Shown piece after piece: positions 11,313 through 23,184 of a DNA stretch of 43,925 nt. Position numbers and translations under genes: made by a program. Source of the DNA: Actinomycetota bacterium (GTDB taxonomy: Bacteria; Actinomycetota; Acidimicrobiia; Acidimicrobiales; MedAcidi-G1); assembly GCA_014381745.1 (NCBI GenBank), contig JACNLA010000029.1, positions 11,783 through 55,707 on the forward strand, written 5' to 3'. How positions within the stretch are numbered: the first letter of the stretch is position 1; every line of letters begins with the position of its first letter. Under the pieces are notes generated by a model. That model was not told where the DNA came from, did not search any database, and worked only from the letters and a program-made list of their open reading frames with translations.

Positions 11313-12248
11313 TCAGCCGGTTGGAGGGTCCCAGCGGAGCACGGCGGCGGCCGACGACATGCCCGCTCCGAAGCCGACCATGAGCACCAGGTCACCCGGG
11401 GCGATCCTGTCGTTGTCGATGGCATCCACGAGGGCGAGGGGTATGGAGGCCGCAGACGTGTTGCCGGTGTGGGCCAGGACCAGTGCCGTCCTGTCCATCG
11501 GAATGCCGAGGCGTTTCAGGGAGGCCTCGATGATCCTCACGTTGGCCTGGTGGGGGACCACGATTGAGATATCGCCGGCGGATACCCGGGCGCGATCGAT
11601 CGCGTTCTGGGCGGAGTTGGTCATGGCCATCACAGCCCTCCTGAAGACCTCCTTGCCGTTCATCACGATTGTTCCGCCGTGGTCGCAGTAGAGGATGCCG
11701 GCAGCCGAGCCGTCAGACATGAGGTCCCATCCCAGCAGTGAGGGCTCATCGCCGGTGCGTTCCAGCACGACCGCGCCGGCACCGTCGCCGAAAAGGACGC
11801 ATGTGCCCCGGTCGGTCCAGTCCACGATTCCGCTGAGGGCGTCGCTGCCGATAAGGAGGATGCGTTCAACCCCGCTGTTCATGAACTGCATTGCCGTGAC
11901 GAGCCCGTAGACGAAGCCCGAACACGCTGCGTTCATGTCGACGGCTCCACAGGTGAGGCCCAGCTCGTGCTGTACGACAGACGCGCTGGCCGGGAACTGC
12001 TGGTCGGCGGTGGTGGTCGCCAGCAGCAGCAGGTCGATCTGTTCCGGTGTCAGACCAGCCATGTCCATTGCGGCCCGACCGGCAGCCGTCGACATCTCCG
12101 TAACCGTGCCGTCGATGTGGCGGCTCCTGATTCCACTTCTGGCGGTAATCCATTCATCGGATGTGTCCACCATCTTCGACAGGTCGTCATTGGTGAGAAC
12201 CCTCTCGGGAAGGTTCGTCGCCCATCCCGTGATACGTCCGTGGGGCAT
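11313..12248 (-). CDS. fabH: Beta-ketoacyl-ACP synthase III (FabH)
   Basis: 311 residues. The Cys-His-Asn triad of the initiating condensing enzyme is present: Cys109 in NAACSGF, His233 in PHQAN and Asn263 in AHTGNTSAAS. FabH joins an acyl-CoA starter with malonyl-ACP to begin fatty acid synthesis in the cytoplasm. The ATG 12248 has a GGAG 7 nt upstream, so unlike many first genes here it seems to have a leader. No other fab genes are adjacent. Divergent from the cysQ-like gene. Confidence 0.93.
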   Translation of the reverse strand: MPHGRITGWATNLPERVLTNDDLSKMVDTSDEWITARSGIRSRHIDGTVTEMSTAAGRAAMDMAGLTPEQIDLLLLATTTADQQFPASASVVQHELGLTCGAVDMNAACSGFVYGLVTAMQFMNSGVERILLIGSDALSGIVDWTDRGTCVLFGDGAGAVVLERTGDEPSLLGWDLMSDGSAAGILYCDHGGTIVMNGKEVFRRAVMAMTNSAQNAIDRARVSAGDISIVVPHQANVRIIEASLKRLGIPMDRTALVLAHTGNTSAASIPLALVDAIDNDRIAPGDLVLMVGFGAGMSSAAAVLRWDPPTG

Positions 12249-12329
12249 GTGGGTACTCCGTGTGATGACGCGGTGAGAGGCCGGCCGGCCCAGGCCAACG
12301 GTAGTGGCCCCGAGGTGCCGTTACGTGCG

Positions 12330-12357
12330 GATCCACCCGGTCCGGACCGGGTGGATC
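12330..12357. promoter_or_regulatory. Perfect 28-bp palindrome, probable operator
   Basis: The half site GATCCACCCGGTCC is followed directly by its exact reverse complement. It lies between divergent fabH and the cysQ-like gene and covers the -35 position of the cysQ -10 box at 12366-12371. Because transcription diverges here, a terminator role is unlikely; a dimeric regulator site is the better guess. Confidence 0.6.
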
Positions 12358-12365
12358 GTTGCCGA

Positions 12366-12371
12366 TAGGGT
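12366..12371 (+). promoter_or_regulatory. Putative -10 box of leaderless promoter (cysQ-like)
   Basis: TAGGGT ends 8 nt before ATG 12380. The -35 position (12343-12348, CGGACC) falls inside the palindrome. Confidence 0.5.
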
Positions 12372-12379
12372 CGCCGCCC

Positions 12380-13159
12380 ATGTCGAAGCTGGTCTCCGGG
12401 GCCGATCCGGACCACACCTGTGACCATCGCCTGGCTGGCATGCTTGCCCGGAAGGCCGGGAACCTTCTGGTTGATGTGAGAAGGAAGGCCTTGTCTGATG
12501 GGCTTCCCGCGCATCGGGTGAGGGCCGTCGGCGACAGGGTTGCCCATGACCATCTGGTGGAAGCGCTGGCCAGGTTCCGGCCCGATGATGCAGTGCTCTC
12601 AGAAGAGGGGACCGACGACGGGTCGAGGCTCACGGAAAGGCGTGTGTGGATCCTCGACCCACTGGACGGAACCCGGGACTACGGAATGCCCGGTAGCGCT
12701 GAGTGGGCGGTGCATGTGGCGCTGGTCGTGGGCGGTGCTCCCGTTGCGGCAGCCGTGGACCTTCCAGCCGTCGGGAGGCTCTACGGAACCCTCCAGGAAC
12801 CCGTGCCCGACGGCTGTGACACTCCACGTGACAGGCCGGTGGTCATAACGAGCCGGTCTCAGTGGGGAGAGGCCGAGCACGTGGCTGCTGCAATAGGTGG
12901 CGTGGTGCGTACCTGCGGGTCGGCCGGGGTGAAGGCCATGGCCGTCGTAGAGGGGACTGCAGACGTGTACGTGCACCCGTCTGGGCTCTACGAGTGGGAC
13001 GTCTGCGCACCGGCGGCGGTTGCGGCAGCGGCCGGTCTCGACGTCTGCGGCATGGACGGATCGGACCTCTCCTACAACAAGGCCCGGCCGGTGGTGCCGG
13101 GCTTCCTGGTCACCAGGCCGGAGTTCACCGAAGCGGTCCGCTCCTGTCTGGTCTGGTAG
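12380..13159 (+). CDS. Inositol monophosphatase superfamily / CysQ-like 3'(2'),5'-bisphosphate nucleotidase
   Basis: A 259-residue Mg2+-dependent, Li+-sensitive-type phosphatase. Metal-binding motifs are visible: SEEG (about residues 74-77), DPLDGT (93-98) and YEWDVCAPAA near the C-terminus. The length and the DYG after DPLDGT fit CysQ-like enzymes that recycle PAP in sulfur metabolism; inositol phosphate as substrate cannot be excluded. ATG 12380 is chosen over TTG 12359 because the -10-like box lies just upstream and the extra residues are unconserved. Confidence 0.85.
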   Translation: MSKLVSGADPDHTCDHRLAGMLARKAGNLLVDVRRKALSDGLPAHRVRAVGDRVAHDHLVEALARFRPDDAVLSEEGTDDGSRLTERRVWILDPLDGTRDYGMPGSAEWAVHVALVVGGAPVAAAVDLPAVGRLYGTLQEPVPDGCDTPRDRPVVITSRSQWGEAEHVAAAIGGVVRTCGSAGVKAMAVVEGTADVYVHPSGLYEWDVCAPAAVAAAAGLDVCGMDGSDLSYNKARPVVPGFLVTRPEFTEAVRSCLVW

Positions 13160-13215: not shown

Positions 13216-13403
13216 CGGCGCCCCGTGGCGAGGCGAAGCCGGTGCGATTCCGGCGCTGTCCCGCAACTGTGTGCCCGCACCCGTGAGGGGGTGGGCGAGC
13301 CAGGCCGACCGGCCATGGGGCTCGACAACGGCTCTCGAGGAAGAGCGGTCGTCGGGCAGGGCTTCCTGTCTGCGCCCGTCTACTCGGCAGACAGGAGAAA
13401 CAA
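13216..13403 (+). ncRNA. Cobalamin (B12) riboswitch
   Basis: The core GAAGCCGGTGCGATTCCGG (13235-13253) followed by GCTGTCCCGCAACTGT (13255-13270) is the conserved cobalamin aptamer core, and GAGCCAGGCCGACC (13297-13310) corresponds to the B12 box. A further hairpin lies at about 13323-13352. It sits directly upstream of a BtuFCD-type importer, so B12 would repress its own uptake. Outer boundaries are approximate. Confidence 0.92.
13364..13396 (+). promoter_or_regulatory. Shine-Dalgarno-sequestering hairpin of the riboswitch
   Basis: TCCTGTCTGC (13364-13373) pairs perfectly with GCAGACAGGA (13387-13396). The right arm includes most of the AGGAG ribosome site (13393-13397) of the downstream gene, so this is probably the OFF-state expression platform acting on translation. 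AGGAAG (13338-13343) can alternatively pair with CTTCCT (13362-13367), a possible anti-sequestor. Confidence 0.65.
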
Positions 13404-21507: not shown

Positions 21508-21532
21508 GCCGGTTCACCGGCGCCTTTGTTCT
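21508..21532 (+). terminator. Intrinsic terminator after the histidine phosphatase gene
   Basis: GCCGG (21508-21512), loop TTCA, CCGGC (21517-21521), followed by a T-rich stretch (GCCTTTGTTCT). It starts at the base after the TGA. Confidence 0.6.
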
Positions 21533-21562
21533 CGCTGATTCCCGACAACGCCCCGGGTGGCC

Positions 21563-21568
21563 TAGGCT
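21563..21568 (+). promoter_or_regulatory. Putative -10 box of leaderless promoter (Fur family gene)
   Basis: TAGGCT ends 8 nt before ATG 21577. Confidence 0.5.
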
Positions 21569-21576
21569 CGACCGCT

Positions 21577-22080
21577 ATGTCTGAGGGAACGGTGGACACG
21601 ATGGTCGGGGAGGCCGCCCATGCCGACCCTGTTGACCTTGAGGACCTGCATGTGACCGTTGGTCGGAGGCTGCGGGCTGCCTCGATGCGCTACAGCCGCT
21701 CCCGCTACTCGGTGGTCGAGGTTCTGGCTGCAGGTGGCAGGCCGCTTACCCTTCCCGAGATCCTCGCTGCGGGGCACGAACAGGGTCTCGCACAGAGCTC
21801 CGCCTACCGCAACCTTGGCGAGCTCGTCGAGGTGGGTGTGGTTCGTCGAGTCGAGTCCGGTTACGACCACTCGCGTTTCGAACTGCACGAGTCCCTGACC
21901 GGCCACCACCACCACCTGGTCTGCATCGACTGTGGCCGGGTCGATGACTTTGAGGTGCCAGACGAGTTCGAGGCCGGCATCGAGGGCCTCGCCGGTGTGG
22001 CCAGAGCCCAGGGTTTTCGTGTCGAGTCGCACCGCTTCGACATGTTGGGCCGCTGCCCGGCATGCCATGGTTCCGCGTAG
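21577..22080 (+). CDS. Fur family metal-responsive transcriptional regulator
   Basis: 167 residues. A winged-helix DNA-binding domain (RYSVVEVLAAGGRPLTLPEI, SSAYRNLGELVEVGVVRRV) is followed by a metal-binding dimerisation domain with a His cluster (GHHHHLVCIDC) and a final CPACH, giving the two CXXC pairs of the structural zinc site. The family senses Fe, Zn or Mn; zinc (Zur) or iron cannot be separated by eye. ATG 21577 is preferred over ATG 21601 because of the -10 spacing. A Nudix gene follows 15 nt later. Confidence 0.88.
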   Translation: MSEGTVDTMVGEAAHADPVDLEDLHVTVGRRLRAASMRYSRSRYSVVEVLAAGGRPLTLPEILAAGHEQGLAQSSAYRNLGELVEVGVVRRVESGYDHSRFELHESLTGHHHHLVCIDCGRVDDFEVPDEFEAGIEGLAGVARAQGFRVESHRFDMLGRCPACHGSA

Positions 22081-22590: not shown

Positions 22591-23184
22591 TCAGGCGAGG
22601 CGTTCCAGGCCACCCCATGCCAGCCGGGCGGTGAGGGTCGCCATCTCGTCGGCGGACCTGCACCGGCCCTCGTGCATCCAGTGACGGATCATTCCCTCTG
22701 AGATGCCGTTCACCCCGGAGGCCATCGCCAGGGCGTCGTCGTGGTCGGCTGCCCTGATGAGGCTCGCCACCATCTCGGCGAACGAGTCCCTTACACGCCG
22801 CAGGTCATGTCGGAACTCAGGGTCGTTGCCGAGGCTGGCCCCGTAGAGGACGGCGTAGGCATCGGGGCTGTCGTCAAAGAAGTGGTAGTAGGCGCGGAAT
22901 CCGGCCTCGACTGCCAGCCGGGGGGTGTCCTGTTCCTGTGCTCGTTCGCTGATTGCACTGAGGAGGCGGTCGCCTGTCTGGGCCAGCACCTCCTTGAACA
23001 GGTCGTGCTTGGAGGCGAAGTGCTGGTAGAGGACCGGCTTGGTGATTCCAGCCTCAGATGCCAGGGCGCTCATCGAGGTTTCGTGGTAGCCGAGGCGTGC
23101 GAAGACCTGCAGGGCCACACACAGAAGCTGTTGTCGACGCTCCGGGGCAGGGAGTCGCACGGGCGAAGCGACGGTAGCGGTCAT
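22591..23184 (-). CDS. TetR/AcrR family transcriptional regulator
   Basis: A 197-residue one-component repressor. Residues about 14-60 form the TetR helix-turn-helix (RRQQLLCVALQVFARLGYHETSMSALASEAGITKPVLYQHFASKHDLF). The C-terminal half is helical and would bind an unknown ligand. Target genes are not evident; the upstream small membrane protein gene is on the same strand. ATG 23184 has a -10-like box 6 nt upstream. Confidence 0.9.
   Translation of the reverse strand: MTATVASPVRLPAPERRQQLLCVALQVFARLGYHETSMSALASEAGITKPVLYQHFASKHDLFKEVLAQTGDRLLSAISERAQEQDTPRLAVEAGFRAYYHFFDDSPDAYAVLYGASLGNDPEFRHDLRRVRDSFAEMVASLIRAADHDDALAMASGVNGISEGMIRHWMHEGRCRSADEMATLTARLAWGGLERLA

Follow-up and report, generated by a model that had tools for sequence, protein, structure and literature searches.

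A perfect 28-bp palindrome between divergent fabH and cysQ-like genes, found in one of seven genomes of its genus and possibly formed by template switching

Genes and features at the locus

The window (the whole 43,925-nucleotide stretch of DNA analyzed) comes from a genome, labeled G000 here, that appears to be a marine member of the Acidimicrobiales because the closest named loci belong to MAGs with such labels (Actinomycetota, Candidatus Microthrix, Acidimicrobiaceae, and Acidimicrobiia). Its perfect palindrome sits between divergently transcribed fabH and cysQ-like genes, with the following features.

11313..12248, minus strand: fabH, beta-ketoacyl-ACP synthase III (TIGR00747, 338.6 bits; cut-off 292.1)
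12298..12303, minus strand: predicted -10 box of fabH, TACCGT (the same in 6/7 genus genomes; one base changed in G004)
12330..12357, no strand: perfect 28-bp palindrome, 14+14 without spacer (arms are exact reverse complements)
12330..12343, no strand: left arm (inner core CCCGGTCC, followed by GG, shared with relatives)
12344..12357, no strand: right arm (somewhat fewer identities to relatives)
12366..12371, plus strand: predicted -10 box of the cysQ-like gene, TAGGGT (TAGGGTCGCCGCCCATGTC identical in 7/7 genus genomes)
12380..13159, plus strand: cysQ-like gene, inositol monophosphatase family (PF00459; TIGR01331 CysQ, 100 bits)

The name of the second gene goes no further than 'cysQ-like' because the best NCBIfam model, CysQ, scores under its cut-off of 228.8 bits. 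The gene pair is widespread in the family: among the 30 loci with orthologue matches, drawn from 48 family genomes searched, fabH lies upstream of the cysQ-like gene on the opposite strand in 29, and the one exception (L039) is truncated where its contig ends. A second, partly overlapping set of 48 loci yielded fabH in 19; the other 29 are mostly matches of at most 62% identity, some with little upstream sequence. Loci with fabH yield 32 distinct intergenic regions.

FabH and the CysQ-like enzyme are possibly tied through 3',5'-ADP, which is released upon loading of acyl carrier protein. Literature searches on CysQ with holo-ACP synthase or phosphoadenosine phosphate returned nothing, and a search on divergent fabH with a palindromic operator in Actinobacteria gave no such arrangement among the matches listed. 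The link to fatty acid or sulfur metabolism raised by the first-pass annotation of this DNA comes solely from the two neighboring genes.

Predicted promoters

Both promoters rest on conservation of their -10 boxes, since a sigma-70 consensus scan of positions 12100-12600, which demands both hexamers, found neither. The cysQ-like ATG is at 12380, with the TAGGGT box 8 bases before the start codon, and all 32 family regions have a TA[AG][GT]GTC box placed 8-10 bases ahead of an ATG or GTG. A -10 box just ahead of the start codon is a signature of leaderless starts in actinobacteria, and the cysQ-like gene is apparently leaderless. A 17-base spacer from the TAGGGT box places the -35 hexamer at 12343-12348, on the center of the palindrome, which extends from -50 to -23 relative to the cysQ-like start.

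On the fabH side, the predicted -10 box suggests a transcript start site near 12291, relative to which the palindrome occupies approximately -39 to -66. The gap from the fabH start (12248) to the palindrome is 81 bases. The positions first described for the palindrome, over the -35 position of the predicted cysQ promoter and about 80 bp upstream of fabH, therefore both hold. So does the view that it is not a terminator: an intrinsic terminator (a GC stem with a trailing T run, past the end of a gene) is ruled out, with none found at 12100-12600 and the two genes divergent.

In two family loci, L044 and L045, the predicted -10 boxes of fabH and the cysQ-like gene are only 13 bases apart, so the divergent promoters there must overlap.

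Rarity of the palindrome

The 28-bp palindrome is real and exceeds chance expectation, and its rare property is spacerless perfection. Other spacerless palindromes in the window have arms of at most 8. With independent bases of the window's composition, 0.0005 palindromes of 14+14 are expected per window and 0.026 per 2.19-Mb genome. Within the 818,528 of 2,187,117 bases (37%) of G000 that were scanned, it is the longest spacerless perfect palindrome, and the next arms measure 11, 10, and 10. The full census by arm length is 204 of 6, 60 of 7, 19 of 8, 5 of 9, 2 of 10, 1 of 11, and 1 of 14. The maximum arm in 20 order-3 Markov simulations of the same size was 12, and none reached 14. The first-pass annotation, which considered a palindrome of this length very unlikely by chance, is borne out. 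When a spacer of up to 6 bases or mismatches are allowed, seven other inverted repeats in the sampled 37% score 12-13 against 14; some of these may be terminators.

Conservation in congeners and the two arms

The palindrome was sought upstream of the fabH and cysQ orthologs in six congeners (G001-G006, one genome per species, with coding identity to G000 of 75-82% over fabH and cysQ) and is present in none, so the conservation that the first-pass annotation had proposed to check did not materialize, which is one of the two outcomes that it had named as counting against its reading. About the same center, the six congeners show symmetry at 5, 5, 6, 7, 7, and 8 of 14 pairs. Both -10 boxes are kept in the genus, and the spacer between them is variable. 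The ungapped distance from the palindrome to the -10 box is the same in G000, G001, and G004, indicating no net length change.

The arms differ somewhat in their resemblance to relatives. Identities of the left arm to G000, out of 14 positions, are 10 in G001, 10 in G004, 9 in G005, 7 in G006, 7 in G002, and 6 in G003; those of the right arm, in the same order, are 8, 8, 4, 5, 5, and 6. The left arm is thus closer to relatives in five of the six and tied in G003, with margins of 0-5 positions, in a comparison that is ungapped, anchored on the -10 box, and rougher for G002, G003, G005, and G006 because their spacers have 52-57 bases rather than 60. G001 and G004 share the inner left arm plus the central GG (CCCGGTCCGG) exactly, and G005 differs from it by one base. 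In a tree of fabH and cysQ, G005 is outermost and G000 comes next, followed by the remaining five. Because the left core is shared with G001 and G004 and nearly identical in G005, the outermost branch of the tree, it probably predates the separation of G000 from the other five. The right arm is the likelier newcomer in the G000 lineage.

Inverted repeats in the spacers of relatives

The spacer of G000 has 60 bases and 72% G+C, and none of its 300 dinucleotide shuffles reached the palindrome (p<1/300). The same test of the best inverted repeat gave p values of 0.007 for G005, 0.013 for G001, 0.117 for G004, 0.123 for G006, 0.217 for G002, and 0.913 for G003; these values are approximate and come from related genomes. 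A higher-scoring repeat in G006 overlaps the -10 box and lies partly outside the tested spacer. Across 21 family regions outside the genus, p was 0.37-1.0, with two regions that have a 13-base spacer and two without a recognized fabH box left out.

Half sites differ among the repeats of G000, G005, and G001, as do the spacers (0, 4, and 3 bases, respectively), and for these reasons the repeats misfit a single dimeric protein. They fit a core sequence that would seed new inverted repeats.

Template switching as the most probable origin

Taken together, the comparisons suggest that the palindrome is a species-specific state within a fast-evolving spacer between conserved -10 boxes, most probably a template-switch copy, a reading to which we give a probability of about one half. 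The core of the left arm is GC-rich, with the self-complementary CCGG at its end. On reaching CCGG, a nascent strand could anneal to the opposite strand or to itself. Switched synthesis would then copy the left arm outwards and replace the older right arm, and such copying would write exactly the right arm that is present. The event would be placed in the G000 lineage. We infer the template switch itself, and likewise that no dedicated binding protein is involved.

A templated copy on the G000 branch is suggested because relatives are somewhat more similar to the left arm than to the right. The palindrome also occurs in G000 only, with no net change of length relative to G001 and G004. Two points speak against template switching: the difference between the arms is small (0-5 of 14 positions), and G005 and G001 have inverted repeats of their own near the same place (p of about 0.007 and 0.013), which could reflect selection for symmetry. 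In addition, a single left-to-right copy is incomplete as an explanation because it is the outer right arm, GGATC, rather than the outer left arm, that is closer to G001 (GGACC) and G004 (GGAAC).

In Escherichia coli, template switching reportedly converts imperfect inverted repeats into perfect ones (PMC7202029), and in yeast it reportedly homogenizes repeat arms (PMC8604942). The proposed event would resemble such quasipalindrome-associated mutations in making a perfect repeat from an imperfect or short seed, with changes clustered on one arm. Unlike in those cases, ancestral and derived forms were not seen side by side in one species, and the event is reconstructed across approximately 20% coding divergence.

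A striking and statistically real promoter palindrome need not be a conserved operator. If it was made by template switching, it would provide a natural case of long symmetric sites appearing in a bacterial promoter in one step, and such one-step symmetric sites, if true, would be raw material for new operators.

A recently gained operator

The leading alternative, possible but tentative, is that the palindrome serves a dimeric repressor as an operator acquired by the species of G000 alone, where it would block RNA polymerase at the cysQ-like promoter and could also affect fabH. Its perfect 28-bp symmetry is centered on the predicted -35 position, and its length in the 37% sample lies beyond the simulations. 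A long symmetric site over the -35 region between divergent genes is likewise typical of operators of TetR-type dimeric repressors. The palindrome differs from these operators in having no adjoining regulator gene, in being missing from six congeners, and in the lack of a related second site in the searches made.

Among the regulator genes seen, the closest to the palindrome are 9-10 kb distant.

21526-22080: Fur-family gene (PF01475, 59.5 bits)
22591-23184, minus strand: TetR-family gene (PF00440, 57.9 bits)

The latter is one of five TetR_N matches in G000, TetR_N being the only regulator family searched genome-wide. The presence of these five matches and of the Fur-family gene favors an operator, but nothing ties either gene of the window to the palindrome, and no similar palindrome was seen by eye upstream of the TetR-family gene. 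Five congeners, all of which lack the palindrome, likewise have a TetR_N match at about 10 kb from cysQ.

Searches for further sites, one of the checks that the first-pass annotation had proposed, gave limited returns. At up to 2 mismatches, the half site has 40 forward and 40 reverse matches in G000, slightly more than the 30 and 31 of the reversed control, which leans towards an operator; its exact matches in the genome are the two arms only. The core 22-mer has no second copy in G000 at up to 3 mismatches. Across 298 genomes of the order, with up to 2 mismatches allowed, it occurs only in G000 and G216, where it falls inside a 384-codon open frame, and the control matches in 7 genomes. An 18-mer is absent in exact form from viral contigs. 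At up to 2 mismatches, it occurs at 8 places in 4/7 genus genomes, compared with 1 for the control. One of the 8 is the palindrome itself, 4 fall within a high-GC3 open frame, and the remaining 3 (L133, L136, and L139) are in no frame that passes the filter. A spaced motif has 4 places in 2/7 genomes against 3 control places. No regulon emerged from the half site, the 22-mer (in the 298 genomes of the order), the 18-mer, or the spaced motif. A dispersed palindromic repeat, the other outcome that the first-pass annotation had set against an operator, is ruled out by the single copy of the 22-mer at up to 3 mismatches.

Neither a second site in the genome nor an adjoining regulator gene was seen, but single-target regulators exist, and neither of the two is strictly required of an operator. 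Uniqueness is also not contrary to this explanation, as the conserved palindrome near ctaC described below is itself unique at 22 bases with up to 3 mismatches. The operator proposed by the first-pass annotation is therefore favored by symmetry, promoter position, and rarity, but not by conservation in close relatives, and the repeats in G005 and G001, with their other half sites and spacers of 4 and 3 bases, argue against one shared operator.

Structural, combined, and chance explanations

A structural element is improbable. As a cruciform or an RNA hairpin, the palindrome would insulate the divergent promoters or stop antisense transcripts. The two promoters are indeed close together, the palindrome forms a 12-pair stem when the strand towards fabH is folded, and the repeats at about this position differ in their letters among G000, G005, and G001, as a structural role permits. 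However, the palindrome lies upstream of both predicted start sites and would therefore be in neither main transcript, the T run of a terminator is missing, and the 172-nt region folds no better than its shuffles (z of -0.82). The best repeat of the spacer also has p>0.1 in 4/7 genus genomes and 0.37-1.0 in the 21 family regions.

Equally doubtful is a combined scenario in which the spacer is a region that rebuilds symmetric sites by template switching at a CCGG-rich core, in G000 and independently in G005 and G001, with some of these sites then used by a local regulator that would couple fatty acid initiation to 3',5'-ADP removal. Least plausible of all is that independent point substitutions made the perfect palindrome: the GC-rich and fast-changing spacer favors this, but the expectation of 0.026 per genome, the failure of all 20 simulations to reach an arm of 14, and the same result in 300 shuffles of the 60-base spacer leave it very little room.

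Other palindromes of the same genome

Three other perfect palindromes in the sampled part of G000 have arms of at least 10; one lies inside a coding frame, and the other two are non-coding. These two are listed here with an inverted repeat that has a spacer.

G000:C22:318057-318078 (L123:18057-18078): 22-bp perfect palindrome GACAGGGACCTAGGTCCCTGTC, between acyl-CoA dehydrogenase and ctaC-like (cytochrome oxidase subunit II) genes
G000:C42:59404-59423 (L154:19404-19423): 20-bp perfect palindrome, outside coding frames
G000:C7:94982-95012 (L168:14982-15012): inverted repeat with 13-base arms and a 5-base spacer, CTATCCACAG on both arms

These palindromes of similar rank bear on the operator explanation, because both of the non-coding perfect ones with arms of at least 10 resemble operators, one supported by conservation and the other by its motif only, and the base rate accordingly favors it. 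The ctaC palindrome is the next longest perfect one in the sampled 37%. Its arms are nearly invariant in all five genus genomes aligned, and its flanks differ; the alignment leaves out G001 and G005, which have no full-length ctaC-like match. That it is kept shows that conservation is visible at such divergence where it is present. The core GGGACCWWGGTCCC occurs at 12 places in 6/7 genus genomes, and the reversed control at 0.

The ctaC palindrome is probably a real regulon site in uncultured marine Acidimicrobiales, and its regulon is perhaps oxygen- or redox-linked. Its layout resembles that of DevR/OsdR-type boxes in Streptomyces, for which PMC5069765 gives the consensus AGGGCCGATCGGCCCT. 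Compared with the boxes as presented there, the fabH/cysQ palindrome is similar in being GC-rich and located in an actinobacterial promoter region, but it has other letters, measures 28 rather than 16 bases, is single-copy, and is not conserved.

The 20-bp palindrome has what we take to be a resemblance to the actinobacterial LexA box. The adjacent ORF was named ImuA by eye, which is only a guess; it has no Pfam match at E 0.001. The spaced repeat on contig C7 is presumably reminiscent of paired DnaA boxes.

Neighboring features

A GC-rich inverted repeat, GGCCGGCCGGCC in G000, lies at the predicted fabH start site (window positions 12279-12290). Orthologous fabH leaders from other genera carry GGCCGGTGGGGACCGGCC or GCCGATCGGGGGATCGGC as the repeat at this site, and in several family members the arms are altered yet still pair. 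In 11 of the 30 regions tested, p<0.1 was obtained for the best repeat in the leader of fabH; G000 itself, at 0.167, is not among them. This repeat could be a 5' hairpin or an operator.

Downstream in the window, a cobalamin riboswitch (RF00174, 38.8 bits) is located at 13238-13304. It lies upstream of a periplasmic binding protein (PF01497) and of ORFs that look like its transporter.
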